From Chloroflexota bacterium (GTDB taxonomy: Bacteria > Chloroflexota > Dehalococcoidia > JACQUA01): a stretch of DNA of 64,000 nt. Positions 45,496 to 64,000 of this stretch are shown piece by piece (position 1 is the stretch's first letter; each line of letters opens with the position of its first letter). A program made the translations under genes and the position numbers. The DNA is taken from NCBI GenBank assembly GCA_016210565.1, contig JACQUA010000173.1, forward strand, positions 1-64,000. The letters are read 5' to 3'. A model generated the notes under the pieces. That model was given only the letters and a program-made list of their open reading frames with translations. It did not search any database and was not told the DNA's origin.

Positions 45496-45506
45496 CTCTG
45501 CTCCTG

Positions 45507-45773: not shown

Positions 45774-45891
45774 TTGATCAGCTCCTTTTTGTTCAGGTTA
45801 TGCACTAACCGGGCGGGGCGTGGCCCATGCCCCCGACTCGATCGGCGGCTTGCGGGGTGGGGAAAAGTAATAGCCCGTGCACAAACTGGAC

Positions 45892-46107: not shown

Positions 46108-46215
46108 TTTGATCTCCTTCTCCCTCTGTGAAAAAGGGCACTGCCAACTTTTCAAGCTTTGGCGAAAGTACGAGGGAATGCAGCCTGGCCGCGACTACGG
46201 CCGCAGCATGAGATG

Positions 46216-46368
46216 TCAAAGGCTCCGCTGGTATCTTGATACCCTGTCATATATGAACTTCTTGAGATAATCAATCGCCGTTTCCTTGTTCCAGTCAACA
46301 ATAATCCGTTCCAGAGCCTCCACCTCTTCTGCCTCCAGAAAGATGGCGGTCTTTTTGATCTCCAGCAT
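46216..46368 (-). CDS. Small uncharacterised protein A of the arsenic operon (50 residues)
   Basis: ATG 46368 follows the permease stop by 9 bases and is preceded by AGGAG. The product starts MLEIKKTAIFLEAEEVEALE and ends KKFIYDRVSRYQRSL before TGA at 46218-46216. It aligns along its length with the 71-residue neighbour (MLEIRKTAIFLDEEELLELE). Both share the MLEI-(K/R)-KTAIFL start and a later YLKKF/FLKKS helix. The good ribosome site and the paralogy make it a real gene despite its size. No known family is recognised. Confidence 0.7.
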   Translation of the reverse strand: MLEIKKTAIFLEAEEVEALERIIVDWNKETAIDYLKKFIYDRVSRYQRSL

Positions 46369-46377
46369 TGGCGTCTC

Positions 46378-47409
46378 CTATGTTAGTGCTCCAAACAGGT
46401 AGCCGGACACGGTGGCCATGACCACCACGAGACCAACATAAGTTAGAGCTTTCTTCGTTCCCATGATGTTGCGGACGACGAGCATGCTCGGCAGGGACAG
46501 GCTCGGACCCGCCAGCAACAACGCCAGGGCAGGGCCCCTGCCCATGCCCAGGTCCAGGAAAGCCTTGACTATTGGTACCTCTGTCAGCGTGGCAAAGTAC
46601 ATCAGCGCCCCGAAGAAAGATGCGATGAAATTGGCGGACAGGCTGTTGCCCCCCACAAAGCCGGTCACCGAGGACTCCGGGATGACCGCCTCAATAATTC
46701 CGGCGGCAAATACCCCGATTAGAAGCCAGGGCGTTATGAGGCGCACGAAATGCCAGGTCTCTTTCATCCAGTCCCGTAACTCGCCCCCGGTGAACCAGCG
46801 CCACAGCATGACCACGAGAATGCCCAGTAGGCCACCCGTGACAACCCATCTCTGCGCAGCGGCAGCGACCAGGATTCCCACCAGAACGGCAAAGAAACCA
46901 GCCTGCCGCCACAGGCTCTTGCTCTGGTCGGTCGCCAGTATGGCAAAGGCTCTGGCGTCCTTCAGCGACTCGTCCTTGCGATAAATGGCAGCCATCAACA
47001 GACCGATGAGCACGGAGAAGACGATAGCTCCTGCGGCCCGGGCGATGCCCAGGTCATAGCCCAACAAATTGGCCGAATATACAATTGCCAGCACGTTGAT
47101 GGCCGGGCCCGAGTAAAGAAAGGCGACCGCCGGGCCTAACCCCGCGCCCCTTTTATAGATGCCGCCGAAAAGCGGCAGCACCGTGCAGGAGCAGACGGCC
47201 AGGATCGCCCCGGAAACCGAGGCCACGCTATAGGAAAGGTATTTCCTCGCCTGGGGACCGAAATACTTCAGAACCGCCCCCTGCGAGATGAATGCAGCAA
47301 TGGCGCCGGCTATAAAGAAGGCAGGCACGAGACAGGTAAGCGCGTGCGCCGACAGGTATTCTTCCAGGGCGTTGAGTCCAGGGCGAAAGAGTCCGTTGAT
47401 GATGCCCAA
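46378..47409 (-). CDS. Permease of the ArsP/SO_0444 (DUF318) family
   Basis: The 343-residue protein (TTG start) has about nine membrane helices. The CSCTVLPLFGGIYKRGAGLG segment contains the paired cysteines C73 and C75 expected for metalloid-binding permeases. A second glycine-rich repeat, TEVPIVKAFLDLGMGRGPAL, follows. Family members export trivalent organoarsenicals (ArsP) or metal ions. Context (arsR upstream, arsC and acr3 downstream) favours an arsenic compound. The start codon is uncertain because no good ribosome site is visible. Confidence 0.88.
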   Translation of the reverse strand: MGIINGLFRPGLNALEEYLSAHALTCLVPAFFIAGAIAAFISQGAVLKYFGPQARKYLSYSVASVSGAILAVCSCTVLPLFGGIYKRGAGLGPAVAFLYSGPAINVLAIVYSANLLGYDLGIARAAGAIVFSVLIGLLMAAIYRKDESLKDARAFAILATDQSKSLWRQAGFFAVLVGILVAAAAQRWVVTGGLLGILVVMLWRWFTGGELRDWMKETWHFVRLITPWLLIGVFAAGIIEAVIPESSVTGFVGGNSLSANFIASFFGALMYFATLTEVPIVKAFLDLGMGRGPALALLLAGPSLSLPSMLVVRNIMGTKKALTYVGLVVVMATVSGYLFGALT

Positions 47410-47518
47410 AGGGTTATCCGGTTATGCGCATTATCGCATATAGCCCAAAAAAGATATAGACCAATGCAAAAGCACTAATGGCGATTACATCGCTACAGTG
47501 AGACGAAAACGGGGGCTT

Positions 47519-47666
47519 TCACCACAGAGACACGGAGAACACAGAGAAGAACCAGTCAGCCGTCAGCTATCAGCTTTCAGCCCCACCTGCCCCGGCGGGG
47601 CGGTCCGACTGCTGATGGCTGAAAGCTGAGAGCTACCTCCGTGCCCTCGGTGTCTCTGTGGTGAAC
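47519..47666. repeat. Nested inverted repeat (CACCACAGAGACA / AGCTATCAGCTTTCAG)
   Basis: TTCACCACAGAGACACGGAG pairs with CGGTGTCTCTGTGGTGAA at the outside, and CAGCTATCAGCTTTCAG pairs with CTGAAAGCTGAGAGCT inside, giving one large nested hairpin. It fills the gap between arsR and the permease gene on the - strand and may separate their expression. No gene is seen in 47410-47695. Confidence 0.7.
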
Positions 47667-47695
47667 ATAATGCCCCGTTCCTTAACGCGCCTGCA

Positions 47696-48067
47696 TTAGC
47701 TTTTTCGCCCTGAACGCATTCTTTCGGCGCAGCCCGGACCCACCCGCTCGGCTTTTCTGAGCCGCTCCAGGTCCGCCCTGGCCACCGGGTTCCTTTCGAT
47801 GGCGGCGGCCAGAGTCTCCACCAGGCGCACCGCGTGGCTTTCCATCTCATCCTTGCTAACGGAGTACAGGGCCCAGGAACCCACTTTCCTCAGCCGCAGG
47901 AAGCCGGCGTCGTACAGGATATTCAGGTTCCGGGAAGCCCTGGTCTGAGAGATATCCAGCGCCTGCATGACCTCGCAGACGCAGCACTCCCTTTCCAGCA
48001 GAACGTTCAGAATTCTGAGCCTGGTTTCATCTGACAGCGCCTTGAAATTGTTTACCAGGTTGCGCAT
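47696..48067 (-). CDS. arsR: ArsR-family transcriptional repressor
   Basis: The 123-residue protein has the ArsR winged helix (FKALSDETRLRILNVL, then DISQTRASRNLNILYDAG). The arsenite-sensing cysteines are in ECCVCEV (C28, C29, C31). As(III) binding there releases the repressor from DNA. It heads the operon that continues with the permease, the two small proteins, the redox protein, ArsC and ACR3. An inverted repeat overlapping its own promoter lies at 48088-48113. It is divergent from the molybdoenzyme locus, so it may control both directions. Confidence 0.95.
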   Translation of the reverse strand: MRNLVNNFKALSDETRLRILNVLLERECCVCEVMQALDISQTRASRNLNILYDAGFLRLRKVGSWALYSVSKDEMESHAVRLVETLAAAIERNPVARADLERLRKAERVGPGCAERMRSGRKS

Positions 48068-48889: not shown

Positions 48890-51310
48890 ATGGAAATAAC
48901 CCGACGGGAATTCATCAAATCTGCCGGAACTTCGGCCACCGCCCTGGCTGTTATCGGGCCGAACATGGAATTCAGGGCCATCAAGGATTCTCAGATCGGC
49001 CGTCAAGAAGGCGAAAAATGGGTCGCCACGGGTTGCACGGGCTGCGTCGGCTGGTGTCCCCTGATGGTGAAGGTAGTGAATGGTAAGGCAGTGCGGATCA
49101 AAGGTAATCCCAATTCCAACTGGACGCAAGGAAAACTGTGTCCCCGCGGCTTGCTGAATTTGCAGGTCACCTATGACCCGGACAGGGTCAAGAAGCCACT
49201 CAGGCGCACCAATCCGGTCAAAGGCAGGGACGAGGACCCTAAATGGATCGAGATAAGCTGGGATGAGGCGATCGGCGCCATTGCCCAGAAAATGAGGGAA
49301 CTCAGGGACAGGGGCACGCCCGAGAGGTTCGCCCTGTTCCGCGGCCGGTACAATCCCATGGACGCGGATATCCTCTATGGGAGACTGGTCAAAGCCTACG
49401 GCAGCCCCAATTCCATATCCCACAGCGCCCTTTGCGCCGAGACCACGAAATCCGGTTACTGGTATGCGGCCGGCCGGTACGCCTACAACTCCTTTGACTT
49501 CGCCAACACCAACTATATTTTGAGTTTTGGGGTCAACTTCCTCGAGGCCCATCGTCCGGTCACCGGACTGTTAGCCAGTTGGGCCAAAGGCCGCAGGGGA
49601 AGGGCTATCCGGCCCAAGACGGTGGTCATCGATCCCAGATACTCCGTTACGGCCTCCCGGGCCGACGAATGGCTTCCGATAAATCCGGGGACGGATGGCG
49701 CTCTGGCCCTGGGAATCGCTCACACGATACTGGTGGACGGCCTGTGGGATAGAAAATTCGTCGGGGATTTCAAAGAGGCTTCTGGCAAGTTCGTTGCCGG
49801 CAAGGTGGTAGACGATAAAGACTGGGAGGATGCCAGCACCACGGGCCTGGTGAAATGGTGGAACCTGTTCCTCAAGGATTTTGCTGCGGAAAGGGCCGCC
49901 CAAATCACCGGAATCCCCGCCTCCACTATCACCCGGCTGGCCCGGGAATTCGCCACCACGAAACCCGCCGTGACGCTCCGAAGCCGCGGCAGTGAAGCCT
50001 GGCCGGGAAACGGCACGTACAACTCCTATGCCATCTATTCATTGAACGGGCTGGTGGGGAGTGTGGAGGTAAAAGGCGGCATTAACCATAGCGCCAGCGT
50101 CAGTTATTCGCCGGAACCGATCAAGCTGGAGCTTGATGCGGTGGCAGAAACCGGGGGGAAGAAGCCGCGCATCGACGAAAAAGGCACCAAGAAATTCCCC
50201 CAGGCTGACGTCATCACGAACAACGCGGCGGATAACATTATCAGAGAGTTCCCCTACCCTATCGAGATGGCGCTTGGCTACTGGAACAACTTTACTTTTT
50301 CCGCCCCGGGGAGCAAACGCTGGGAAGAAGCCCTCAAGAAGATTCCTTTCCTGGTGCATCACACTACCCACATCAGTGAATGGAGCCAGTATGCCGACAT
50401 CGTTCTCCCCGCCAGAACGTACATCGAAAAGTGGAGCGCGGGGAACCCGGCGGGCGGCTCCAGCGTGGAGAACGGAGTGACGCTTTATCAGCCGGTGATA
50501 GATCCTCTCTACGATACAAAATGCGAGGTAGACATCGCCATCGCTCTCGGCAAAGAGCTGGGGAAATACTACCCATCCATCAAGCGGTCCTTCGATGGCA
50601 TAGGCGGGACCTACGGTGACACGCCCGAGGGGTATGCCAGGGTTCGGACTAAGGCTTTCTGGGAGAAGCTCCCGGGAGGCTGGGACGAGTTCAAAGCCAG
50701 AGGAACGGTGAACGTAAGCCCCTACAAATTCACCTGGCAGTTTCCCACGCCCTCGAAGAAGTTTGAGTTCTACTCAGGGACCCTGAAGAAGCTGTTTACG
50801 GACAAGAAGGTGACGGACAGCGACCTGGCGACCTACAACATCAAGGCCCGCGGCGACCTGGTGTATGTGCCGCATCACGAAGACCCCATCTTCATCGGGG
50901 ACGCTGCTGAGTTCCCTCTGGTCCTGATAACTTATAAGAATGCTTTGAGCCAGGAGGGCAGAAGCGCCAATACCCCCTGGGCCCAGGAAATGTACCTGAA
51001 CCCCCTGTACGGGCAGGGATGGATGAACCTGGCGGAAATCAACCCTGAGACGGCAAAAAGATTTGGCGTCAACGACGGGGAGGCGGTCTTCGTCGAATCG
51101 GTGGTCGGTAAAATCAAAGCTACAGCCAGGGTTTTCGAAGGGATACACCCCGACGTCGTTGCCATGTGCTACGGCCAGGGGCACTGGGCCTACGGCAAAT
51201 GGGCGAAGGACAAAGGGGCCAATCCCAACGAAATTACCGGGGTCATGTACGAGAATATCACGGGGATGGCGGCCTATTTCAATACCAGGGTAAAGGTCTA
51301 CAAAGCATAA
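48890..51310 (+). CDS. Molybdopterin oxidoreductase, candidate respiratory arsenate reductase (ArrA-like)
   Basis: The 806-residue DMSO-reductase-family protein has a twin-arginine signal (TRREFIK) for folded export. The [4Fe-4S] ligands are spaced C49-x2-C52-x3-C56-x27-C84, the spacing I recall for ArrA. Residues matching the ArrA active site as I remember it are RGRY at 151-154, H178, S179, the molybdenum ligand C182 in HSALCAETTK, K187 and Y199. Context supports arsenate respiration: a divergent arsenic operon, a ferredoxin subunit, a TorD chaperone and a downstream PhnD/kinase/regulator set. Alternatives are an ArxA-like arsenite oxidase or another reductase of the polysulfide/arsenate lineage. 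The family is certain; the substrate is inferred. Confidence 0.9.
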   Translation: MEITRREFIKSAGTSATALAVIGPNMEFRAIKDSQIGRQEGEKWVATGCTGCVGWCPLMVKVVNGKAVRIKGNPNSNWTQGKLCPRGLLNLQVTYDPDRVKKPLRRTNPVKGRDEDPKWIEISWDEAIGAIAQKMRELRDRGTPERFALFRGRYNPMDADILYGRLVKAYGSPNSISHSALCAETTKSGYWYAAGRYAYNSFDFANTNYILSFGVNFLEAHRPVTGLLASWAKGRRGRAIRPKTVVIDPRYSVTASRADEWLPINPGTDGALALGIAHTILVDGLWDRKFVGDFKEASGKFVAGKVVDDKDWEDASTTGLVKWWNLFLKDFAAERAAQITGIPASTITRLAREFATTKPAVTLRSRGSEAWPGNGTYNSYAIYSLNGLVGSVEVKGGINHSASVSYSPEPIKLELDAVAETGGKKPRIDEKGTKKFPQADVITNNAADNIIREFPYPIEMALGYWNNFTFSAPGSKRWEEALKKIPFLVHHTTHISEWSQYADIVLPARTYIEKWSAGNPAGGSSVENGVTLYQPVIDPLYDTKCEVDIAIALGKELGKYYPSIKRSFDGIGGTYGDTPEGYARVRTKAFWEKLPGGWDEFKARGTVNVSPYKFTWQFPTPSKKFEFYSGTLKKLFTDKKVTDSDLATYNIKARGDLVYVPHHEDPIFIGDAAEFPLVLITYKNALSQEGRSANTPWAQEMYLNPLYGQGWMNLAEINPETAKRFGVNDGEAVFVESVVGKIKATARVFEGIHPDVVAMCYGQGHWAYGKWAKDKGANPNEITGVMYENITGMAAYFNTRVKVYKA

Positions 51311-51323
51311 GGAGGTATATGAC

Positions 51324-51968
51324 ATGGCCAAATACGCAATGTTAATCGACCTCGACCGGTGTCTGGCGTGTCAGGCCTGCGTCATCGCCTGCAAGACGGA
51401 AAACAACGTGCCCGATTCAACCCCCGACACCTTCAAGGGGCGCAAGGCCAACTTTCGGACCAGGGTGGTGCCCCTGGCCCACTCGGGAAAATACCCCAAC
51501 CCCGCCGTCCAGATCTTCCCTGTGCTTTGTAATCAGTGTGAGAATCCGCCCTGCGTGGCCGCCTGCCCCACCGGGGCAACCTATCAGCGGGATGACGGTA
51601 TCGTCCTGGTAGACTGGGAGAAATGCATGGGCTGCAAGTATTGCATGGCGGTATGTCCCTACGGGCAAAGAGGCTTTGTTCAACTGGATGAAGCCAGGGA
51701 CTATCACAACCCCGAAGCGATTCCCCCGGGCAACCAGCAGTCCCGGCCCCCCAAAGGCAAGGTAGATAAGTGCACTTTTTGCGCCCACCTGGTAGAGCGT
51801 GGCGAGCTTCCCGCCTGCGTTACCGCCTGCCCGGCCGACGCCCGGGTATTCGGGGATGCGACCCAGGTTGGCGGGGTAATAGCCGGTTTGCTGGCCAGCC
51901 GCAACAGCCAGGTCCTGAGACCGGACTTCGGCACCCAACCCCGCGTCTTCTATCTTCTGAAGGGATAA
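51324..51968 (+). CDS. Four-cluster ferredoxin subunit (DmsB/ArrB-like)
   Basis: The 214-residue protein has four cysteine groups for [4Fe-4S] clusters: CLACQACVIAC, CNQCENPPCVAAC, CMGCKYCMAVC and CTFCAHLVERG...CVTAC. This is the standard electron-transfer subunit of DMSO-reductase-type enzymes, passing electrons between the diheme cytochrome and the catalytic subunit. It begins 13 bases after the catalytic gene, with AAGGAGG before it. There is no signal peptide, so it would be co-exported with its TAT partner. Length fits ArrB. Confidence 0.92.
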   Translation: MAKYAMLIDLDRCLACQACVIACKTENNVPDSTPDTFKGRKANFRTRVVPLAHSGKYPNPAVQIFPVLCNQCENPPCVAACPTGATYQRDDGIVLVDWEKCMGCKYCMAVCPYGQRGFVQLDEARDYHNPEAIPPGNQQSRPPKGKVDKCTFCAHLVERGELPACVTACPADARVFGDATQVGGVIAGLLASRNSQVLRPDFGTQPRVFYLLKG

Positions 51969-51971: not shown

Positions 51972-52621
51972 GTGAAGCAGTATCTGGAAAGACTGGCCGC
52001 GACCGCTGACATCTGCGGGTTGCTTTCACTGTGCTACGCCTCACCGGCAGATGAGGCGTTCAACGACGAGTTGCCAGCGCGGCTGACGCGTGCTCTTCGA
52101 GCCGCTGGTTTCCTGCACATTGAGGATGAAGCCGCCCGGATGAGTCGCTGCTTCGGCGACAGCAAAGACGATCTGGACCTGAAGCTGGAATACACTCGCC
52201 TGTTCAGGGGACCGGTGAAAGCGGCGGCCTATCCTTACGAATCCATGAATGTTGAAGGCGAGGTAATGGCTAAGTCGACGTTGAGCGTGCTGGACTGCTA
52301 CAGGGAAGTTGGAGTGGCGGTGAGCGAGTCATTCAACGACTTGCCCGATCACATAACCGTGGAACTCGAGTTTGTCCGGTACCTCTGCCTGAAAGAGATG
52401 GCCGCCATCAAAGGCGGCAACGTCGAAGACGCCTGTCCTTCAGGAAAGCCCGCCACTCCTTCGCCCGGGACCATCTTCTGAAGTGGGCGCACCGGTTCAC
52501 CGGCCAGATAGAACACAACACAACTGCCCCTTTCTATCTCGCCCTGGCCAGGATCACCCACGCTTTCCTTCTTTCCGACTTCAGCATAGCAACGGAAAGC
52601 CAGACTGCCCCGGCCTGCTGA
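51972..52621 (+). pseudogene. TorD/DmsD-family chaperone with a frameshift
   Basis: From GTG 51972 the frame encodes a TorD-like helical chaperone (LDLKLEYTRLFRGP, DLPDHITVELEFVRYLCLKE) but diverges after NVEDA near 52431 and stops at 52481. In the -1 register the sequence continues as LSFRKARHSFARDHLLKWAH and ends APFYLALARITHAFLLSDF... at TGA 52619-52621. That matches the C-terminus of the second TorD here (61008-61736). One missing C in a GCC(C)TG context explains it. TorD proteins hold the apo-molybdoenzyme until cofactor insertion and guard its TAT signal. The gene is either recently inactivated or the base is a sequence error. Confidence 0.85.
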
Positions 52622-52624
52622 CAC

Positions 52625-53785
52625 ATGGTTTTTGGTACACATCTGCTCACAAAGGCTTTTGAAAGCCTCCACGGTGGGGGCATAACCTGGAACAAGTTCC
52701 TGTGCTCCCGCTACCGTTGGCGCCGTTCCACCTGCCGTTCCTGCGTGCAGGCGTGTCCTGAAAAAGCCCTGGCCTTCAACGGCACTCTCGCTATTGACAC
52801 GGAGAGGTGCAACGGTTGCGGTGTATGCCTGGCCCAATGTCCCAACGGGGCGCTGCACAGCGCCAGGGTCGGAGACCATGCCCTGCTGACCAGGATGACA
52901 CTTTTCCTGTCCGAGAACCCGCAAGTCACCTTGCGTCTGGCGTGCCGGGAGCGGCCTCCAGACCAGAATACGTTCACCTTATCCTGCCTGTCGCGGGTAA
53001 CCACCCCCCTGCTTGCCGGCCCGTTTTGTGCCGCCGTGCGCCAGGTAGAAATAGCCAGACCACATTGCGAAGGTTGCCACGGCCGCCTGGACAGCTACAG
53101 CCTGGAAAAGACCGTTTCCCTGGCACAGGGCATCTGCGAGATGGCCGGCCTCGGCAACCGGGCCATAGCCCTCGGCGTTGAGTGGCCAGGCGGCCACGAA
53201 ACGCCAAAAGAAAGGGCAATCTCGCGGCGCGGGGCAGTGAGAATCCTCAGAACCGAGATCTTGAATACGTTGTCCTCGATCTTCGTCCGGCCCGGGGACG
53301 GAAAGAATCTGCCCCATTGGTCCCGGCAGGCAAATGTCTCAAGGGACCTGCTGTTAGCGCTGGTGCAGGCTCTCGGCTGCCGGAGGCCCGTAACCGTAGA
53401 CCGGGAGGGGTTGCCCCTTGCCGAGGTCGAGATATCCCCCGCTTGCGTCGGCTGCACCGTCTGCTCCACCCTGTGCCCTGCGGGGGCCATCGAGCTGCTC
53501 GAACAAGAGAATTCCATCTTTCTATCTTTCCTTCCTCACCTCTGTACCGCCTGCGGTATTTGTATTGAGGCCTGCTTGCCAAAAGCCATTTCTTTCAAGC
53601 CCCAGTTTGATCTCGGGAAACTGGCCAGCCGCCAAACAGTGTCACTGGGCCGTTTGCCCCGGGTGAAATGCACCGGCTGCCAGGCTGACTTCTATTCCGC
53701 CGGGGACGAACTCTGCCTGGCCTGCCGCGCACAGAACGGCGCTCGCCCTCGTTTGCTGTGGGAATCTCATCGGTCGAAGGGTTAG
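52625..53785 (+). CDS. Multi-cluster Fe-S protein with C-terminal cysteine ribbon
   Basis: The 386-residue protein has an N-terminal two-cluster ferredoxin domain (CRSCVQACPEKAL, CNGCGVCLAQCP). A middle domain with CEGCHGRL follows, then a second two-cluster domain (CVGCTVCSTLCPAGAIEL, CTACGICIEACLPKA). A C-terminal zinc-ribbon-like pair, CTGC and CLAC, ends the protein. No signal is seen, so it is likely cytoplasmic. It is placed between TorD and MobB, and an analogous Fe-S protein with a cysteine ribbon sits between TorD and MobB in the second locus (59386-61011). It may deliver electrons or sulfur in enzyme maturation. No named family is recognised. Confidence 0.8.
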   Translation: MVFGTHLLTKAFESLHGGGITWNKFLCSRYRWRRSTCRSCVQACPEKALAFNGTLAIDTERCNGCGVCLAQCPNGALHSARVGDHALLTRMTLFLSENPQVTLRLACRERPPDQNTFTLSCLSRVTTPLLAGPFCAAVRQVEIARPHCEGCHGRLDSYSLEKTVSLAQGICEMAGLGNRAIALGVEWPGGHETPKERAISRRGAVRILRTEILNTLSSIFVRPGDGKNLPHWSRQANVSRDLLLALVQALGCRRPVTVDREGLPLAEVEISPACVGCTVCSTLCPAGAIELLEQENSIFLSFLPHLCTACGICIEACLPKAISFKPQFDLGKLASRQTVSLGRLPRVKCTGCQADFYSAGDELCLACRAQNGARPRLLWESHRSKG

Positions 53786-54361
53786 ATGGTTCCGGCTATT
53801 TGTTTCACCGGCAAGTCGGGATCCGGCAAGACGACGCTCATCGTCCGCGTCGTTGAAGAGTTGAAACGCCGGAGGTTCCGGGTAGCCGTCATCAAGCACG
53901 CTCCCCATGGCTTTGAGCTAGACAAGCCTGGCAAAGATAGCTGGCGCTTCTCGTCGGCCGGCAGCGACACCGTAGCCCTGGTGTCTCCCGGGGGAATCGC
54001 CGTGATGGCCCGCCTGGACGGTGACAGGTATTTACAGACCGTCATCTGCCAGATGTCCCTGAGTAATGACATAGTCCTCATTGAAGGTTGTAAGGGGTTC
54101 CACCTCCCCAAGGTCCTGGTGTCCTGCGGAGAGGAGGGCTCGCCCCTGTCGAATCCGGGAGATAATCTCATCGCGATTGTGTCGGACAGAGTGTACGACT
54201 ACCCTGTTCCCCGCTTCAGTCCCGCCGAAGCGGGACGCCTGGTTGAACTACTGGAGAGCCTTATTCATGCCTCGAAAGACCAGGGAAACGGCGGGGCACC
54301 TCACCCCATGGCGCAACTGCGGGAAACCACCGGGCAGCCCGAAGAACTGGCGCCCTTCTGA
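53786..54361 (+). CDS. mobB: Molybdopterin-guanine dinucleotide biosynthesis protein MobB (copy 1)
   Basis: The 191-residue protein has the P-loop TGKSGSGKTTL near the N-terminus, the MobB stretch VAVIKHAPHGFELDKPGKDS and the DIVLIEGCKGF motif. MobB binds GTP and helps MobA make the guanine dinucleotide form of the cofactor used by DMSO-reductase-family enzymes. Its ATG directly abuts the stop of the Fe-S protein gene, so the two are translationally linked. A second mobB lies at 58713-59228. Confidence 0.92.
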   Translation: MVPAICFTGKSGSGKTTLIVRVVEELKRRRFRVAVIKHAPHGFELDKPGKDSWRFSSAGSDTVALVSPGGIAVMARLDGDRYLQTVICQMSLSNDIVLIEGCKGFHLPKVLVSCGEEGSPLSNPGDNLIAIVSDRVYDYPVPRFSPAEAGRLVELLESLIHASKDQGNGGAPHPMAQLRETTGQPEELAPF

Positions 54362-54526
54362 GACACCCCCTTCACCCATTCCAAACTGCTTTCAGAATCC
54401 CATCGCATCTAACTGCCCTACCACGGTAACCACAGGCCCGTGCCCCGGTGGTGCTTCACAACCACCGCGCTCCGGGACGCTCCGCACCACGGACAACATG
54501 CCGGTACCTCGGGACTCGCAGGCCCG

Positions 54527-54642
54527 TCATTGCGAGTCCCGATTTCGTCGGGACGAAGCAATCCCCTGGTCGGCGGTCATCCGGTCCGCCGTGCGGACTC
54601 TCGCAAAGCGGAGGAGATTGCCGCGCTTCGCTCGCAATGACA
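54527..54642. repeat. CATTGCGAG...CTCGCAATGAC repeat, copy 1
   Basis: The ends GTCATTGCGAGTCCCGA and CGCTTCGCTCGCAATGAC are inverted complements enclosing a GGACGAAGCAATCCCC core. A related copy is at 61775-61882, so one copy lies near each molybdoenzyme cassette. Confidence 0.65.
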
Positions 54643-54700
54643 TTTTCCGAGCAATGCCTTCGGATAAGTCTGTTTGTCGCTGCAGTCTCAGTGTGTTATG

Positions 54701-54730
54701 TTGACCACCCCTTTCCGGTTCTTCTATAAT
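54701..54730 (+). promoter_or_regulatory. Sigma70 promoter of the binding protein/kinase/regulator operon
   Basis: TTGACC at 54701-54706 and a perfect TATAAT at 54725-54730 are 18 bases apart. The transcript would start near 54737 and run through the repeat at 54792-54878 before the first start codon at 54905. Confidence 0.7.
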
Positions 54731-54791
54731 ATGGATGCAATCATCCATGCGCCTGGAGGCGCGCCATGAAGAATGAAAACGCCGGGGTCAT

Positions 54792-54878
54792 CTGTCATTC
54801 TGAGCGAAGCGAGCGTAGTCGAAGAATCCTTTGGGGGGGGGTGAGACGAAAGACCCTTCGACTGCGCTCAGGGTGACA
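54792..54878. repeat. CTGAGCGAAG-type inverted repeat, copy 3
   Basis: TGTCATTCTGAGCGAAGCGA and TGCGCTCAGGGTGACA are the complementary ends. It lies between the TATAAT promoter and the PhnD-like gene, so the hairpin would be in the 5' leader of that message. Confidence 0.65.
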
Positions 54879-54904
54879 TTTTCGTAGCAAACAGAAAGAA
54901 GCTC

Positions 54905-55870
54905 ATGCCCATGACGAAGCCTCCTCGAACGTACCGGGTCCTGCTGATACTTGCTCTGCTGGCCATCATTTCGGTCTTGGCCGGCTCAGGCTGCGGCGGA
55001 GACACCTACACGCGGGTCAACCTGCAGAAGAAGTACCCCCGCGAACCTGTCTCCGGTTTGACCGGCGCCGCCATTACTACCGGCCAACCGGCGCTCCGGG
55101 TGGGCATAGCCGGGGTGATTTCCCCGGCCATGACCCTGGAAAGCTACCAGCAACTGCTCCAGTACATGGGCAAGACGCTGGGCCGGCCGGTGCAACTGGT
55201 ACAACGCCCGACCTACAGTGAGATGAACGAGCTGATAAAGAACCGGCAGGTGGAAGTGGCTTTTGTCTGCAGCCTGGCCTACGTGGAAGGCAAGTCCGAC
55301 TTCGATATGGAGCTGCTGGCGGCGCCCCAGGTGAGAGGGGCAATAACTTACAATTCGTACCTCATCGTTCCCGCCGACAGCACCGCGGCCCAGCTTGAAG
55401 ACCTGAGGGGCAAGGTCTTCGCCTTCACCGATCCCCTTTCCAACAGCGGCCGGCTGGCGCCTACCTATGAGCTGGCCAGGATTCGTGAAAAGCCGGAGAC
55501 CTTCTTCAGGAACTACATCTTCACCTACAACCACGACTATTCGATCCAGGCAGTCGCCGACAGGCTTGTGGACGGGGCGGCGGTGGATAGCCTGATCTAT
55601 GACTATCTGGCCTCGGTAAACAGCCCCCTTATCAGGAAGACAAAAGTCATCGCTTCCTGGGGACCCTACGGCATACCCCCCGTCGTGGTCCACCCCGGTC
55701 TGGACATCTCGCTGAAGACTGAATTGAAGGAGTTCTTCCTCAGTCTCCATACCGAGGCGGAGGGACTGAACATACTGGATTCCCTGCTCATCGACCGCTT
55801 TGTGGAAGTGAGTGACGGGATTTTCGACTCACTTCGTCAGATGAAGCAGCGGCTTGCCGGAGCCCAATGA
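54905..55870 (+). CDS. PhnD-like phosphate/oxyanion-binding lipoprotein
   Basis: The 321-residue protein (ATG 54905; 54911 is an alternative) has a signal ending LAGSGCGG (probable lipoprotein C30). It is a PhnD/TransferrinBP-like type II binding domain: ALRVGIAGVISPAMTLESY, NRQVEVAFVCSLAYVEG and VFAFTDPLSNSGRL. PhnD relatives bind phosphonate, phosphite or other oxyanions; AioX and similar proteins of this fold bind arsenite for a sensor kinase. It overlaps the kinase gene by 4 bases (ATGA), so it is most likely the sensing subunit rather than part of a transporter. Confidence 0.87.
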   Translation: MPMTKPPRTYRVLLILALLAIISVLAGSGCGGDTYTRVNLQKKYPREPVSGLTGAAITTGQPALRVGIAGVISPAMTLESYQQLLQYMGKTLGRPVQLVQRPTYSEMNELIKNRQVEVAFVCSLAYVEGKSDFDMELLAAPQVRGAITYNSYLIVPADSTAAQLEDLRGKVFAFTDPLSNSGRLAPTYELARIREKPETFFRNYIFTYNHDYSIQAVADRLVDGAAVDSLIYDYLASVNSPLIRKTKVIASWGPYGIPPVVVHPGLDISLKTELKEFFLSLHTEAEGLNILDSLLIDRFVEVSDGIFDSLRQMKQRLAGAQ

Positions 55871-57825
55871 AACCCAAACAGGTCTGGTCTGGATTCTGGG
55901 ACGTCGCCGGTTCGGTGAGCATTCGGACCAAGATAATGGGCATCGTGGCTTCCCTGGTGCTCGGCTTCGGCCTGTTTGTCGGCTGGTACATCCCTCGCAG
56001 CGAGACCCGGTATTTGACCGAGCAACTGGAGGAAAGGGGCCTGACCATTGCCAGGAGCGTCGCCGCCGTGGGACAGGACATGGCGCTAACCAACAACCAG
56101 TTCGGACTCTACATGCTGGCCAGGAACACCCTGGCCAGCAATAAAGACGTTCTTTATGTTTTCATTACGGACAGCGAGGGAGACCCCCTGGTGCATACTT
56201 TCGAAGGAGGATTCCCGGTCGACCTCCTGGAATTGAGCCGTTCGCACCGCAGCGAGAACCCCCGTGTTCTGCCCCTGGTCACCGAAACGCGCAAGATCAG
56301 AGACATAGCCGTCCCCATCCTGGGCAGCCGGGTAGGAGTAGTGCACGTAGGGCTGGACGAGTCCGCCCTCTTCGCTTACAGCACGGAACATTCGCGGCAT
56401 ATACTGACCTTCACCCTCATCGCTCTCCTTCTCGGCGGCGCCTTCGCTTACTGGCTGGCGACGATCCTTACCCGGCCCATCCTCAGCCTGGAACAGGCTA
56501 CCAGGATGGTCGCCAGCAACAGCGACTTTCCCTGGCAAGCCCCCCCCTGGGCGAGGGACGAAATAGGCCGCCTGGGGTCATCTTTCAACGAGATGACCCG
56601 GAAAGTGGCGGAAAGGACCCGGGAGATCATCGAGAAGAACAAGGAGTTGACCACCCTCAACGCCCTGTCCCAGGCCATCAGCCGTCCCCTGGACCTGGGG
56701 GAAAAGGCATCCTCGGCGTTGAAGTCCATCTCGGAAGGCCTGGAACTCAAAGCCGCCTGGTTCTTTCTCCTCAATCCCCAGAGTCAGAAGCTGGAACTGC
56801 TGTGCCAGGAAGGGGTCCGCATCCCCATCACACCCGGCGCGGCTGAAGAACTCGCCGGGGAGCTGGAAAAAGGCAGCCCGGCGATCCTGGAGAAAGTTGG
56901 AGACGGCCGCCTTCCTTTGAGCGGGCCGCTTCTGGTGCAGGAGGGGCTGGTCCCGGTGGCCCTGGTGGCTCTCAGGTCGGGGCGCCGTTTTCTCGGGTTC
57001 CTGGCGCTGTCCCGGGCCGGCAAACCCTTTGCCTCCAGCGAAGTCCATCTCCTCAGGGCCATCGGAGAGCAACTCGGCGTGGCGGTGGAGAACTTCATTC
57101 TGTGGCAGGAACTGAAGCATAAGGAGAACCTGCGGACGCAGTTGCTGGCCAAGGTGATATCGGCCCAGGAGGAGGAGCGGAAGCGCATCGCCCGGGAGTT
57201 GCACGACCAGACCAGCCAGTCCATCACCTCGCTCATGGTGGGGCTCAAGGTCACCGAGGAATCCGGCGACGTCGGTGTGATAAAGCAGAGAATAGGCGAA
57301 CTGAGGACGCTGGCATCCGATACCCTGGAAAAGGTGCGCGACCTGTCTATCGGGCTCCGGCCCAGCGTCCTCGACGACCTCGGACTGGCTCCGGCCCTGA
57401 ACCGCTACATAAAAGACTATGCCCGCAAGACCGGTCTTTCCACCCAGTTCCAGAGCGTGGGCCTCGACGGCCTGCGCCTCCGGCCCGAGGTGGAAACAGC
57501 CATCTACCGCGTGGTGCAGGAAGCCCTCACCAACGTGGCCCGGCACGCCGCGGCAAAACACGTCGGCGTCATCCTGGAGCGGTCCCGGAAGAAGCTGCGG
57601 GCCATAACCGAGGATGACGGCAAAGGCTTCGACGTCGGCAGGATCATGTCCAGTCCCAACCTGGAAATGAGATTGGGCCTCTTTGGAATGGAGGAACGCA
57701 TCTCCTTGATCGGTGGCAGCCTGACCATCGAATCAGCGCCGGGAAAAGGGACCACGGTCTACGTCGAGGTCCCCCTCGAAGAAAACAGAGCCTCAGATGA
57801 ACAAAACCAGGATACTGCTGGTTGA
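55867..57825 (+). CDS. Sensor histidine kinase (NarX-like, HAMP-GAF-HisKA_3)
   Basis: The 652-residue protein has a first membrane helix at about 20-40, an extracytoplasmic sensor region to about 175, a second helix (LTFTLIALLLGGAFAYWLAT) and a HAMP linker. A GAF-like domain follows at about 275-405. The HisKA_3 dimerisation domain has H446 in RIARELHDQTSQS, and the C-terminal ATPase has EDDGKGFDV. This architecture is that of NarL-partner kinases. The gene overlaps both the PhnD-like gene upstream and the regulator downstream, so all three are coupled. The stimulus is probably carried by the bound PhnD-like protein. Confidence 0.93.
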   Translation: MKPKQVWSGFWDVAGSVSIRTKIMGIVASLVLGFGLFVGWYIPRSETRYLTEQLEERGLTIARSVAAVGQDMALTNNQFGLYMLARNTLASNKDVLYVFITDSEGDPLVHTFEGGFPVDLLELSRSHRSENPRVLPLVTETRKIRDIAVPILGSRVGVVHVGLDESALFAYSTEHSRHILTFTLIALLLGGAFAYWLATILTRPILSLEQATRMVASNSDFPWQAPPWARDEIGRLGSSFNEMTRKVAERTREIIEKNKELTTLNALSQAISRPLDLGEKASSALKSISEGLELKAAWFFLLNPQSQKLELLCQEGVRIPITPGAAEELAGELEKGSPAILEKVGDGRLPLSGPLLVQEGLVPVALVALRSGRRFLGFLALSRAGKPFASSEVHLLRAIGEQLGVAVENFILWQELKHKENLRTQLLAKVISAQEEERKRIARELHDQTSQSITSLMVGLKVTEESGDVGVIKQRIGELRTLASDTLEKVRDLSIGLRPSVLDDLGLAPALNRYIKDYARKTGLSTQFQSVGLDGLRLRPEVETAIYRVVQEALTNVARHAAAKHVGVILERSRKKLRAITEDDGKGFDVGRIMSSPNLEMRLGLFGMEERISLIGGSLTIESAPGKGTTVYVEVPLEENRASDEQNQDTAG

Positions 57826-58456
57826 CGACCACGCCGTCCTGCGGGCCGGCTTGAGATTGCTGCTGGACAACCAGCCTGACATGGAGGTAATCGGTGAAGC
57901 CGGGGACCCGGCTGATGGCATCGCGCAGGCTAAAGCCGACAAACCGGATATCGTCCTCATGGACCTGAGTTTCCCCCGCGGCGATGGCATAGCAGCGATC
58001 AAGACCATACGAGAAACCCAACCCGAGGTGAAAGTCATCGCCCTGACCATGCACGAAGACGAAAGCTACCTCCGGCCCGTTTTGCAGGCCGGCGCCTCGG
58101 GTTACGTACTGAAACGCGCCGCCGACACCGAACTCATCAGCGCCATCAGGGCAGCCGTCAGGGGCGAGGTCTTTATCTACCCATCTCTGACCAGGATCCT
58201 TCTGGAGGATACCCTGGGGAAGCCGAAGAAGCCCTCCCCTGAAGAAGCAGTGGATATGGACCTTCTGAGCCAGCGGGAAAAAGAGGTCCTCAAGCTCATC
58301 GCCCGGGGGCACTCCAACCGGGAGGTGGCCGAGATGCTCTTCCTCAGCGTCAAGACGGTGGACACCTACAAAGCCCGCCTCATGGAGAAACTCGGGCTCG
58401 AAAGCCGGGTTGACCTGGTAAAATACGCCCTGGAACACGGCCTCCTCGAACGGTAG
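57797..58456 (+). CDS. NarL/LuxR-family response regulator
   Basis: The 219-residue protein has a receiver domain with acidic pocket (LLVDDHAVLR) and phosphorylated D56 in IVLMDLSFPRGDG. The NarL-type helix-turn-helix contains LSQREKEVLKLIARGHSNRE and LSVKTVDTYKARLMEKLG. It overlaps the kinase gene by 29 bases. It should activate the neighbouring molybdoenzyme genes; the dyad at 48162-48193 is a candidate target. Confidence 0.95.
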   Translation: MNKTRILLVDDHAVLRAGLRLLLDNQPDMEVIGEAGDPADGIAQAKADKPDIVLMDLSFPRGDGIAAIKTIRETQPEVKVIALTMHEDESYLRPVLQAGASGYVLKRAADTELISAIRAAVRGEVFIYPSLTRILLEDTLGKPKKPSPEEAVDMDLLSQREKEVLKLIARGHSNREVAEMLFLSVKTVDTYKARLMEKLGLESRVDLVKYALEHGLLER

Positions 58457-58460
58457 AAGC

Positions 58461-58690
58461 CCGTAGCGACACCCGCAAAGGGTGTCGCAAACAGCATCGA
58501 CTTCCCACAACAACACGACCCCGACAAGCCCGGGTAGGGTGGGTGAAGCGAGCAAGACAGGCCACTCCCCGCCTGCCCGGCCATCGACCGCTAAGACGCA
58601 GGAGCGGGCATACCTCCACGTCGCGAGCGGAACCCACCATTCTGTGGCGGCGACAGGCTGGAAAGCCTGTCGTACCATGCGGGGGAAACA
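58461..58690. repeat. Repeat-filled gap at a convergent gene junction
   Basis: The gap contains CCGTAGCGACACC...GGGTGTCGC (58461-58493), a GTAGGGTGGGTGAAGCGAGC...GCGAGCGGAACCCACC element (58535-58640) and a GCGACAGGCTGG...CCTGTCGTACC hairpin. It separates the regulator gene (+) from the second mobB (-) and probably terminates both. Confidence 0.6.
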
Positions 58691-58712
58691 CGACCCCGAC
58701 GAGTCGGGGTGG

Positions 58713-59228
58713 CTACGGGGCAGGTTGGTTGCGCAACGACCGGCCGGCCATGGCCGTCAGCCGCCTCACCAGGGCGGCAACGTCCTCGGCGTTAAAACGG
58801 GTCGCCTTCCCCGGGACCGGCTCTCCGGTGATGATGGCTATGAGGTCCTCCTCGGAACACGGAATCCCCGGGCTGTCCGGCCCACACCGCACTTCCACTT
58901 TAGGCAGCCTGGCCCTCTTGTACCCCTCCACCAGGACGATGTCCACTTTCAGGGTGACACTCTCCAGCACCGCGCCCAGGTCAGGCTCCCCCGGTGTCTC
59001 CTCCATACAAACCACCCGCCCCGGAGAAGTCAACACCACTATGTCACTCCCCGATTCGCGGTGCCTCCTGCTATCCGTGCCCGGGCTGTCCATGCAGAAC
59101 CCGTGGGCGGCGTGCTTTATCACCGCCACCCTCAGCCCCGCCTGCTTCAGTTTGGGGACTATCCGCTCCAGAAGGCTCGTTTTACCCGAGCCAGAATAAC
59201 CGACAAAACTTACGATCGGGACCGGCAT
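58713..59228 (-). CDS. mobB: Molybdopterin-guanine dinucleotide biosynthesis protein MobB (copy 2)
   Basis: The start at ATG 59228 (MPVPIVSFVGYSGSGKTSLL) follows GGGAGGAAGG. The 171-residue protein has the P-loop GYSGSGKT, VAVIKHAAHGFCMDSPGTDS and VDIVLVEGYKR. It is a paralogue of the protein at 53786. Each molybdoenzyme locus in the window thus has its own mobB, suggesting dedicated cofactor maturation. Confidence 0.92.
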   Translation of the reverse strand: MPVPIVSFVGYSGSGKTSLLERIVPKLKQAGLRVAVIKHAAHGFCMDSPGTDSRRHRESGSDIVVLTSPGRVVCMEETPGEPDLGAVLESVTLKVDIVLVEGYKRARLPKVEVRCGPDSPGIPCSEEDLIAIITGEPVPGKATRFNAEDVAALVRRLTAMAGRSLRNQPAP

Positions 59229-59242
59229 GGTAGTTCCTTCCT

Positions 59243-59366
59243 CCCCCTTTCGCAAAAGGGGAGAGAAATGCCTTCCCCTTTGAAAAAGGGGGACTGAGGG
59301 GGATTCCCTCTGGCGCCAAAGGCCTTTTCAAATCCCCCTTAATCCCCCTTTTTCAAAGGGGAAGAG
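59243..59366. repeat. CCCCCTTT...AAAGGGG hairpin cluster
   Basis: Two or three related hairpins (CCCCCTTTCGCAAAAGGGG, CCCCTTTGAAAAAGGGGG and CCCCCTTTTTCAAAGGGG) are packed in 124 bases between mobB copy 2 and the HdrA-like gene. A single copy occurs at 29961-29978. Confidence 0.65.
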
Positions 59367-59385
59367 GGACTGCAGCTTGGCCGCC

Positions 59386-61011
59386 TTACTTAACAGTTGT
59401 TCCTCCCCGGCCGGCAGGAAGCCCCCGACGCGGCAACCGCTTCAGCCGGCAAGCCGGACAAAGAAGAAGAGCGCCCTGTATTACCTCCTCGGGCGCCTGC
59501 AACTTCTGGTGCAAAATCTTCATCAGCGGCGCAGGAGCGACCTCCCCCCCACAGTCCGGACAGCTAACCACGCCGACCCGCAGGAGCAACAGCGACAGTC
59601 CTACGAGGCTGCCTTTGAGCGCCCGTTTGACGTGCAGCGCCCTGGTGGGGCAGACCCTCACACATTCGCCGCAGGCATAACACTGCGAGTGCCGGAACAT
59701 GAGTCCCAGCTCCGTCCCGCTTCTTTCAAAGGCCAGAGCCCCGGACCGGCAGACGCTGGTGCAGAGCCGGCACACGGTGCAGAGTTCTGAATTGATGTCA
59801 ACCAACCCGAAGGGCACGTCATTTCCCTCAATAACAAAGGAGTTCCCAGACTTCTCCACCAGCCCGGCCAGGACCAGAGGCGAAAACGGCGAGGCCGGAT
59901 GCCCATCCCTCGTCCCCGGCATTGGTCGCGGACCCAACTTCTGAATTTCCTCGGCCATCTTCGTCAGTTGGTCACCCACGGACGGCAGGTCCCCATCCAA
60001 TACCCGAAGCAGTCTTTCCCGGCCCAAACCCAGATGAGGCATTAGCCGGTGAACAAAGCCCAGGGCCCGCCTCATTTTGACAAGCTCAAGGCCGTGCAGG
60101 CACTCGTTCTGGCAAGGCAGGACAGCCACGCCTTCGGCCCCCAGCTGGAAGGCCCGCAACACCAGAAAAGGAGAAAGGGTAGCCAGGCAGGGCAAATAAT
60201 AAGGGATGACCGACGCAGGATAGCGAATCCCGGCGGCGCCCATTCTATTGAGGATGCTCTCGCTGCCCCGGCAGTGGACCAGCAAGATGCGCGGTGAAAG
60301 TCCGTCGGGTTTATCGCTGGCAAGGTGGGCCATCCGCTCTTCCGCAATATCCGGCGTGAAGGGGGGAAAATGAATGGCGCCCCACGGACAGGCCGGAACA
60401 CAGGCGCCGCAGCCGTCACAGCCAGCTTTCTCGACCGTGACCGTTCCGCTCTCCCCTTTGATGCTGCCCGAAGGACATGATGAAAGGCACAGCCGGCAGC
60501 CCCACTTGCCGGTGCAGAGGTCGCTTCTTATGCTGGGGACGACCACATACCGTGGCTGCTTCAAGATGTTGAACAATTCCCTGCGCGTGGCGCCCTCCGG
60601 GGGCACTCCAAAGCCAACTTTCAGGTTTTCCGGTCCGACCTCACCCCTCGTTAGGCAGCCCTCCGTTCCGAGCAACAGCATGGCTTTGGCTGTCGCCTCA
60701 TCACGAGAGTGCGCCATGGCGCACTGCTCCCTGAGGTTCACCGGGTGCACCTGGAAAGGCGACGCGCTCGCCTCTCTGGCTGCCTTCCTGAATAACTCGA
60801 GATAGTCTGGTATCGAGCAAGCCCCTATGACCACCGAGCGCACCTTCCTGGCATTCAAGAAGGCCGGAATCTCACCAGGCTCGTCGCAAAGGGCCTCAGC
60901 CATACCCACCGGGAAGTGACGAGATAATGAAGATACTACCTCGTCCAGGTTTATGCCGCTGGCGATTCTTCCCTGACACCGACAGATGATGATTCCCCGG
61001 TCCATTTTCAT
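59386..61011 (-). CDS. HdrA/MvhD-like multi-domain Fe-S protein
   Basis: The 541-residue protein begins like the HdrA N-terminal domain (IIICRCQGRI; VVIGACSIPDYLELFRKA; NLREQCAMAH) but lacks HdrA's FAD domain. A two-cluster ferredoxin domain follows at about 165-215 (CRLCLSSCPSGSI, CDGCGACVPACPWGA). An MvhD-like domain lies at about 240-345 (ILLVHCRGSESILNR, VLPCQNECLHGLE). A second ferredoxin domain at about 425-475 (CTVCRLCTSVC, CYACGECVRVCP) and a C-terminal cysteine ribbon (CPDC, CPAC) complete it. It is likely a cytoplasmic electron-transfer protein. It overlaps torD by 4 bases and parallels the Fe-S protein at 52625 in position. Confidence 0.85.
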   Translation of the reverse strand: MKMDRGIIICRCQGRIASGINLDEVVSSLSRHFPVGMAEALCDEPGEIPAFLNARKVRSVVIGACSIPDYLELFRKAAREASASPFQVHPVNLREQCAMAHSRDEATAKAMLLLGTEGCLTRGEVGPENLKVGFGVPPEGATRRELFNILKQPRYVVVPSIRSDLCTGKWGCRLCLSSCPSGSIKGESGTVTVEKAGCDGCGACVPACPWGAIHFPPFTPDIAEERMAHLASDKPDGLSPRILLVHCRGSESILNRMGAAGIRYPASVIPYYLPCLATLSPFLVLRAFQLGAEGVAVLPCQNECLHGLELVKMRRALGFVHRLMPHLGLGRERLLRVLDGDLPSVGDQLTKMAEEIQKLGPRPMPGTRDGHPASPFSPLVLAGLVEKSGNSFVIEGNDVPFGLVDINSELCTVCRLCTSVCRSGALAFERSGTELGLMFRHSQCYACGECVRVCPTRALHVKRALKGSLVGLSLLLLRVGVVSCPDCGGEVAPAPLMKILHQKLQAPEEVIQGALLLCPACRLKRLPRRGLPAGRGGTTVK

Positions 61012-61736
61012 CCTGGACCGTACCCTGCGGCAGACAAGCTTCGCCGCAGCGCCGAAAGCCGCAGCAGGTCGACCCGGGCGAAACTATCGGTAATCCTGCC
61101 CACGGCTGAATAGAAAGGCTCTCCTGCCTTTTCCAGCCGCCTGGAAAAATCAGTCAGCCAGAGACAAACGTGTTCCCTCAAGAAAGCCTCTTCTCTGGCT
61201 ATTTGCTCGATGGCGGCAGGTACACTCCAGTCCCAGCAGGCTGCTTCTTTCCGCGAGAGGAAGGCCATGAATTCCAGCTCGACAGCGATATGGTCGGGAA
61301 GATCCTTGAAACAAGGAGAAAGGTCCAGACTCTCCCGGGAGTACTCGTGGCTCACCTTGACCGCGGTTTCCCCCATCACAAACCCTCCCTCGACGTATAC
61401 CGATTCGTAAGGCGGCGCGACGAAATGGGGCGAGGCGAAGAACAGCCTCACGTAGGTGTGGGATAACTCCTCCAGCAACCCTTCTTCCCCCTGCTCGCGC
61501 CCCACAAAAGATTTCATTTCTTCCCAACCGGGGCACTCAACCGGCAGCAAGTCCTCTTCCCCGAAAAGCGAAGCGGCTGCATCCACATCCATCCACACCC
61601 TCACCAGGTCCCTGGTGGGCATGGAAAAGGAAGCGGAGAGCAGAGAATAGCAGCGGCTGCGCGCCTCCGCCAGCCCTGCGATTTCCGGGCAGGTTCCCGT
61701 ACTGGCCACTTCAGCAGAACCCCTGGAGGAAAGCAT
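61008..61736 (-). CDS. TorD/DmsD-family molybdoenzyme chaperone (intact copy)
   Basis: The 242-residue protein (ATG 61736 preferred; a longer frame runs into a repeat) is mostly helical. It has the TorD landmarks YESVYVEGGFVMGETAVKVS and LPDHIAVELEFMAFLSRKE, ending APFYxAxxRIT-like EPFYSAVGRITDSFARVDL. It should escort the second locus's catalytic subunit during cofactor insertion. Its start lacks an obvious ribosome site. The stop overlaps the start of the HdrA-like Fe-S gene by 4 bases, so these two proteins are probably made together. Confidence 0.87.
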   Translation of the reverse strand: MLSSRGSAEVASTGTCPEIAGLAEARSRCYSLLSASFSMPTRDLVRVWMDVDAAASLFGEEDLLPVECPGWEEMKSFVGREQGEEGLLEELSHTYVRLFFASPHFVAPPYESVYVEGGFVMGETAVKVSHEYSRESLDLSPCFKDLPDHIAVELEFMAFLSRKEAACWDWSVPAAIEQIAREEAFLREHVCLWLTDFSRRLEKAGEPFYSAVGRITDSFARVDLLRLSALRRSLSAAGYGPG

Positions 61737-61774
61737 TGACCAATACAAACCGATTAGATGGAGCCGGATCGGGC

Positions 61775-61882
61775 TGTCATTGCGAGCGAAGCGAAGCAAT
61801 CTCCCGGACGCTCCAGACCAACGGGGGGATTGCTTCGTCACCCCGACAAGTCGTCCCGAAGAAATCGGGACTCGCAATGACA
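61775..61882. repeat. CATTGCGAG...CTCGCAATGAC repeat, copy 2
   Basis: The ends TGTCATTGCGAGCGAAGCGA and GGGACTCGCAATGACA are inverted complements. It sits inside the second molybdoenzyme gene set, between the small membrane protein gene and torD. Confidence 0.65.
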
Positions 61883-63516: not shown

Positions 63517-64000
63517 TTATAAAATGTCACCCTGCTTGAGATAGTAGACCTTTGGCAGTGTGCCTACCTCTTCCAGGAGCCGGAAAGACCTGGCGCTGTG
63601 GATGAGCTTGTAAACGTGACTCCTGGGGTCTGACATGTCGCCGAAAATGGTAGCTCCCGCCGGGCAGGCCTGCGTACAGGCGGTGGTCCAATCGCCATCC
63701 CTGACTTCTCTTCCCTCGGCTCTTGCCTTCTGCACGGCCTTTTCCAGCCGGTGCTCACAGAAAACACACTTTTCCACGACGCCCTTGGGCCGCACACGGA
63801 CGTCCGGGTTCAAGGCGTTGGCCAGCGTGTCCGGGTAGCTGGGTACCCGCCAGTTGAAATAGCGCCTTGAATAAGGGCAGGCCACCACACAGAAGCGGCA
63901 CCCGATACACCGGTCGTAATCCACCTTGACGATTCCCCCGGCCAGATCGTCCTTGTAAGTAGCGGCCACAGGGCATACCCTGGCGCAAAACGGGTTCTCA
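63517..64000 (-). CDS. Four-cluster ferredoxin subunit (NrfC/PsrB-like), 5' part outside the window
   Basis: The reading frame is open to the right edge. The visible 160 residues include NPFCARVCP, CIGCRFCVVACPYSRR, CVFCEHRLEKA and CTQACPAGATIFGD, cysteine groups of the NrfC/PsrB/DsrO-like ferredoxins, and end LPKVYYLKQGDIL. The longest internal start, GTG 63969, is not the true start because CARVCP lies upstream in frame. It transfers electrons between the NrfD subunit and the off-window catalytic subunit. Confidence 0.9.
   Translation of the reverse strand, partial: ENPFCARVCPVAATYKDDLAGGIVKVDYDRCIGCRFCVVACPYSRRYFNWRVPSYPDTLANALNPDVRVRPKGVVEKCVFCEHRLEKAVQKARAEGREVRDGDWTTACTQACPAGATIFGDMSDPRSHVYKLIHSARSFRLLEEVGTLPKVYYLKQGDIL

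Follow-up and report, generated by a model that had tools for sequence, protein, structure and literature searches.

NapF, a protein with four [4Fe-4S] clusters, binds to NapA, whose own cluster cannot be reconstituted without it (PMC10609526). The FS0 cluster enters the catalytic subunit ahead of the molybdenum cofactor (Moco), and a NarJ/TorD chaperone such as NarJ is needed for both insertions; a cluster donor has been proposed for NapA only, namely NapF, and the donors for other enzymes are unknown (PMC10609526). The window analyzed here, 64,000 nucleotides (contig JACQUA010000173.1, positions 1 to 64,000), belongs to an 81.9-kb contig from a Chloroflexota bacterium. Three molybdoenzyme loci lie on this contig, and each closes with a gene for the chaperone TorD, a gene for a multi-cluster Fe-S protein (FS) and mobB. 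An earlier note on this DNA had read this order in two opposite loci; coordinates and Pfam matches confirmed it in both, and the third copy was added. Judged from sequence, FS would be a cytoplasmic protein dedicated to the maturation of exported molybdenum and tungsten (Mo/W) enzymes, NapF-like and acting with TorD before export by the twin-arginine translocation (Tat) pathway, a reading to which we give slightly better than even odds (about 0.55).

With A as the catalytic subunit, B as the Fe-S beta subunit and NrfD as the membrane subunit, the gene order is A-B-TorD-FS1-MobB in locus 1 (plus strand), which is without NrfD, and A-B-NrfD-TorD-FS2-MobB in locus 2 (minus strand). Locus 3 lies directly behind locus 2, past the window edge (contig 67015-74937), and was found by searching the genome with TorD and FS2; its order is A3-B3-NrfD-TorD-FS3-MobB. 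FS2 (subtype FSb, 541 aa, 59386..61011, minus strand) is composed of an HdrA-N-like domain, a TRR/SRR motif (T/SRRxLL), a pair of ferredoxin units (Fer4x2), an FlpD/MvhD domain, a second Fer4x2 and a C-terminal CxxC/CxxC ribbon. FS1 (subtype FSa, 386 aa, 52625..53785, plus strand) starts with Fer4x2, followed by a degenerate MvhD-like domain, an SRR motif, the second Fer4x2 and the same ribbon. In FS3 (392 aa, contig 67741-68919), the N-terminal HdrA-N-like domain is absent. Pfam identifies Fer4 in FS1 and both Fer4 and FlpD/MvhD in FS2, where the latter (PF02662) passes its gathering score (49.5 bits, cut-off 22.3); the middle of FS1 is under Pfam detection and aligns by hhalign with real MvhD proteins (83.5%, E=8e-6). 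The MvhD part of the HdrA/MvhD likeness claimed earlier for the 541-residue protein extends to the middle of the 386-residue one.

The SRR segment (S/T-RR-x-[LF], also written SRRx[FL][FL]), which is twin-arginine-like and conserved in the FS proteins, occupies residues 142-146 of FS2 and 200-202 of FS1, positioned ahead of the first Fer4 pair in FSb and between the two protein halves in FSa. No N-terminal Tat or other export signal was identified in FS1-3, nor an obvious membrane segment (maximal 19-residue hydropathy 1.4-1.8). No Pfam or NCBIfam model spans the whole FS protein. The AlphaFold models, made from alignments of 3-4 sequences, are poor, with a mean predicted local distance difference test score of 54.7 for FS2 and 50.1 for FS1.

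The two subtypes share a common ancestry. In a profile-profile alignment (hhalign), the FS1 group (22 sequences) matched the FS2 group (seven sequences) with a probability of 100% and E=4.8e-44 over 333 columns, the full shared length with the ribbon included. An explanation of this likeness by generic Fer4 repeats alone was rejected, as the match spans the MvhD-like part as well as the ribbon. Several ferredoxin clusters and a C-terminal Cys-x2-Cys ribbon, both already noted in the two proteins, are strictly conserved: 16 ferredoxin cysteines and four ribbon cysteines are invariant in 24/24 mixed relatives, among which the cysteines of the MvhD region show little or no variation. Within the 22 FSa proteins, at a mean column identity of ~28%, 24/24 cysteines, including all four of the MvhD region, and Arg201 of the SRR motif do not vary.

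Comparison with NapF (TIGR00402) reveals four tetra-cysteine ferredoxin motifs and the lack of an export signal on both sides, a profile match of 96.7% at the Fer4 level and a shared SRRx[ILF] segment, with which Escherichia coli NapF starts (ASRRGIL). Furthermore, the NapF gene accompanies those of the catalytic subunit and of NapD, a chaperone for the Tat signal, in an arrangement resembling FS-TorD-A. NapF, however, has 164 aa and possesses neither an MvhD-like domain nor a ribbon, and the FS proteins are found outside nap operons, where their neighbors are TorD and DMSO-reductase-family (dimethyl sulfoxide) A, B and NrfD genes. The cut-off of the NapF model (102.2) is not reached by FS2 (53.3 bits) or by its relatives at L138 (54.1) and L190 (39.3). 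The HdrA-N-like domain, Fer4 clusters and FlpD/MvhD domain of FSb recur in HdrA2/MvhD fusions, whereas a Pfam scan found no flavin adenine dinucleotide (FAD) domain in the FS proteins, the best HdrA2 score is 140 against a cut-off of 1100, and FS adds a second Fer4 pair, the ribbon and a TorD/Moco context. An assignment of the family to NapF or HdrA proper was rejected, as the scores stay under both curated cut-offs.

The third related system is HycF/HyfH (formate hydrogenlyase subunit 6), which also has a C-terminal Fer4x2 followed by a CxxC ribbon. The C-terminal half of FS is HycF-like by hhalign (98.2%, E=6e-14, the match running through the first CxxC), and a PDB profile match to HycF covers FS positions 394-516 (E=2.6e-20). 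HycF, however, lacks a counterpart to the N-terminal half of FS and is a short structural component of a hydrogenase complex. The same C-terminal Fer4x2-ribbon module is present in a membrane protein of a Desulfobacterales bin (L144:9255-10283) and is, therefore, mobile. FS is a composite of HdrA/MvhD/HycF-type parts and a protein distinct from NapF.

Relatives were found in Chloroflexota, an Armatimonadota bin, a Clostridia-related phylum, Desulfobacterota, Pseudomonadota and one haloarchaeon. A few top candidates were scored per genome, and the counts are lower bounds: FSb occurs in at least 12/400 and FSa in at least 7/301 Chloroflexota genomes, the phylum of a Clostridia bin has matches in at least 25/249 genomes, and in the phylum of a Desulfobacterales bin, 23/198 genomes have a match, some of them plain HdrA. 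The Armatimonadota bin shows the order A-B-NrfD-TorD-FSb. Neighboring genes were labeled with hidden Markov models built for the analysis and counted around 64 genes with full or nearly full architecture, a set that includes the near-duplicates L188/L189 and L196/L197. TorD is the immediate neighbor of 35 of these 64 and lies in the same gene run in 42; the Armatimonadota gene (L145) was scored as having none, though TorD directly precedes it. A same-strand run with TorD, A/B, MobB, MobA, MoeA, ModA or TatC contains 56/64 relatives. By comparison, TorD was found nowhere in 78 control loci (0/78, 1.14 Mb) with other Fer4/HdrA proteins from the same scan; since these come from other genomes, they are a context control, not a matched one. 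The recurrence of TorD with FS is far beyond chance. Seen from the other side, an FS gene adjoins 9/32 Chloroflexota TorD/NarJ loci examined, and many of the remaining ones resemble NarJ next to NarH.

Four plasmid records were opened, and all four place FS at a molybdoenzyme locus. The order is FS-A-B-NrfD-TorD-MoaA in Sulfuricella denitrificans and B-NrfD-A-TorD-x3-FS in Azoarcus KH32C; in the archaeon Haladaptatus salinisoli, FS-TorD stands beside a formate dehydrogenase, and in Sulfitobacter dubius, an FDH3 cluster contains TorD, DUF3305, DUF3306 and FS. All four proteins match the family models via the shared core, with the usual MvhD-region cysteines missing from the Sulfitobacter protein and one Fer4 CxxC from that of Sulfuricella. 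They are currently annotated as '4Fe-4S dicluster domain-containing protein' or 'hydrogenase iron-sulfur subunit'. Unnamed fer4/ferredoxin genes adjoining TorD in formate dehydrogenase operons were recorded by Bay, Chan and Turner in 2015 (PMC4464133), so the association was partly known before. The neighborhoods are of the same kind, and the Sulfitobacter FDH3 cluster carries a member of the FS family; however, those genes, possible homologues of FS, are listed solely as operon neighbors, with no architecture, family, wider distribution or role given. No named description of the FS family was found in the open-access literature searched. Of the claims made earlier, the co-occurrence of these Fe-S genes with molybdoenzyme genes is borne out by the 56/64 runs and the 4/4 plasmid records, while 'undescribed' has to be qualified by the 2015 record.

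The same note had placed the Fe-S gene exactly between a chaperone and MobB. This is the case on the present contig, and the TorD side recurs widely, but MobB is directly downstream of FS in just 5/64 cases, three of which are the loci described here. MobB as an obligate member was thus rejected; elsewhere, its position is taken by MobA, MoeA, MoaA, ModA or TatC. TorD and the Fe-S protein therefore form the core, which is accompanied by varying Moco genes. Several FSa genes close long Moco operons. L200 comprises ModA and transporter (ModABC-type) genes, TatC, MobA, MoeA, MoeA, MobB, MoaA, MOSC and FS, with MoaA and MOSC confirmed by Pfam, and L204 reads TorD-FS-TatC-MoeA-MoeA-MobB-MoaA-MOSC-like-FS. 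Other members lie between TorD and MoeA, ModA, MobA or TatC. Such operons, rich in MobB, MobA, MoeA, MoaA and MOSC, are what would be expected if the ribbon and the SRR segment bound Moco enzymes or the Tat signal and coupled nucleotide attachment or sulfuration (MobA/MobB/MoeA/MOSC) to TorD, with the clusters mainly structural or sensing. FdhE, a CxxC iron-binding accessory protein, offers a precedent for a factor outside the NarJ type (PMC10609526). This role in Moco handling is nevertheless quite improbable: 16 invariant ferredoxin cysteines exceed the needs of a structural role, and Pfam and NCBIfam scans detected no Moco- or nucleotide-binding domain in the FS proteins.

A 441-aa radical SAM protein (PF04055) follows FS in L141:7036-8358, L142:9590-10915 and L143:7364-8689, with TatC next in L141 and L142, and a relative of it lies near an FS gene in L202:13265-14590; it is possibly a further maturation factor. 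In L198:9373-11457, an FSa gene is located near an aldehyde:ferredoxin oxidoreductase-type (tungsten) enzyme and TatC, not near a DMSO-reductase-family enzyme.

The third locus of the contig combines genes of different history. In the trees, A3 (100/100) and B3 (99/99) group with enzymes from L015, L016, L114 and further loci, whereas FS3 is sister to FS2 (100/97), within the clade that serves the A1/A2 type wherever a catalytic gene is in hand. The TorD of locus 3 (D3) groups with D1/D2 at 94/91, under the mark for strong support. MobB2 and MobB3 are 81% identical as proteins, and a DNA block of ~600 bp is 86% identical. This conflict between trees suggests that TorD-FS-MobB was swapped between enzyme types as one block; in the simplest reading, locus 3 kept its structural genes and received its block from the neighboring locus, by replacement or copying. 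Such an exchange favors an accessory role over that of a fixed enzyme subunit. FSb members do stand nearly always after NrfD and TorD in the same operon, as a structural subunit docked on the cytoplasmic face of NrfD might, but FSa members can be found where NrfD is missing, where no enzyme gene is adjacent, and within cofactor operons. Together with the apparent exchange of FS3 between enzyme types, this makes a structural subunit highly improbable.

The partner catalytic subunits almost all carry Tat motifs. These motifs, the missing export signal on FS1-3 and the precedent of NapF favor a NapF-like maturation role with TorD, and the linkage of FS to TorD and cofactor genes in very different microbes indicates that it probably helps to build the enzymes before export. 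Several observations weigh against this role. The MvhD domain normally serves electron exchange, and the FS proteins fail the NapF model. The A3-type catalytic subunits are without the canonical FS0 cysteine motif, which makes the role of FS0 donor impossible for FS in that setting, unless its client is the beta subunit. Two 95%-complete genomes (G018 and G051) have FSb operons and no TorD-family gene, and three Chloroflexota FSa genes are solitary, although their genomes hold molybdoenzymes and a PF02613 match.

The main rival explanation is electron delivery: FS would take electrons via its MvhD domain from a cytoplasmic HdrA, hydrogenase or ferredoxin partner, for reduction of the nascent cofactor in the course of maturation or for the membrane (NrfD) side of a respiratory complex. 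The profile relationship of the HdrA-N-like and FlpD/MvhD domains with HdrA/MvhD agrees with it, as does the L013 operon, where FSb is followed by Hdr-like genes, one of them HdrA-like. The TorD-less FSb operons of G018 and G051, the catalytic subunits lacking the FS0 motif and the MvhD domain itself keep this explanation in play, at a probability that we regard as low. FS1-3 do not have the FAD domain of HdrA, NrfD is missing from locus 1 and many FSa operons, and many members are surrounded by genes for Moco synthesis and Tat, without a gene for an enzyme next to them. The interpretation of the earlier note, a cytoplasmic factor for maturation of, or electron delivery to, DMSO-reductase-family enzymes, is supported by these comparisons, although sequence can demonstrate neither function.

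As a maturation factor, FS would be located in the cytoplasm, where the catalytic subunit, still in its apo form, and its Tat signal would be held by TorD. Through contact with TorD or the apoenzyme, FS would join this complex and equip the catalytic subunit (at FS0), the beta subunit or both with [4Fe-4S] clusters, either by donating the clusters or by providing the electrons that their assembly or insertion requires. Cluster supply would precede or accompany the insertion of the cofactor, whose nucleotide form would be furnished by MobB, MobA, MoeA and others, and the loaded enzyme would then be released to Tat. More broadly, bacteria and archaea might share a general Fe-S delivery protein for exported Mo/W enzymes that has so far been overlooked, namely FS. 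It would dock on TorD or the Tat-signal site via its internal twin-arginine-like motif, pass on [4Fe-4S] clusters and thus be the missing donor of FS0 and beta-subunit clusters in TorD-dependent maturation; this wider proposal is tentative and rather unlikely.

The other genes of the loci were identified by Pfam and NCBIfam profile scans of the window proteins. In locus 1, the catalytic molybdopterin subunit A1 (48890..51310, plus strand; PF00384/PF01568/PF04879) carries a Tat motif (TRREFI) and an N-terminal FS0-type CxxCxxxC; its best NCBIfam match is ArrA, with 669 bits under a cut-off of 1600. It is followed by B1 (51324..51968, plus), a four-cluster, DsrO/TtrB/ArrB-like beta subunit (Fer4_11 by Pfam) that scores 192 bits with NCBIfam DsrO, under the cut-off of 200. 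The TorD gene (51972..52481, plus, 169 aa; PF02613, 79.1 bits) breaks its frame near 52430, and three-frame translation places the C-terminal half in another frame up to ~52623; this may reflect either a genuine frameshift or an error in the assembly. MobB closes the locus (53786..54361, plus; PF03205, 118.6 bits; TIGR00176, 112.7 bits, cut-off 76.2). In locus 2, all on the minus strand, MobB (58713..59255; PF03205) and FS2 are joined by TorD (61008..61877 as the longest open reading frame; PF02613, 86.5 bits), whose true start is probably downstream of that of the longest frame, near 61736, and by the NrfD/PsrC-type membrane subunit C2 (62226..63530; PF03916, 100 bits). The QrcC/DsrO-like beta subunit B2 (63517..64000) is cut by the window end; complete B2 and the catalytic subunit A2 occupy contig 63517-66657. 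Locus 3 has MobB at contig 67015-67557 and TorD at contig 68926-69633.

Just upstream of locus 1 (43985-48067), an arsenic-like cluster was recognized by eye, with an ACR3-like permease, an ArsC-like phosphatase-type reductase, a small thioredoxin-like protein, a permease and an ArsR-like regulator. Given this cluster and the best A1 score to ArrA, the locus 1 enzyme may act on arsenate or arsenite. ACR3-like genes are also found near the enzymes in L013 and L138. Between loci 1 and 2 (54905-58456) lie a PhnD-type binding protein (PF12974), a sensor kinase and a response regulator, and similar genes apparently adjoin the FS loci in L015, L188 and Sulfuricella. We take this set to resemble oxyanion sensing of the AioXSR/ArxXSR type.

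The FS family, which accompanies TorD as well as Moco and Tat genes in several bacterial phyla and in an archaeon, provides a concrete, knock-out-ready candidate for the factor that loads the cluster beside the molybdenum site in enzymes of this superfamily.

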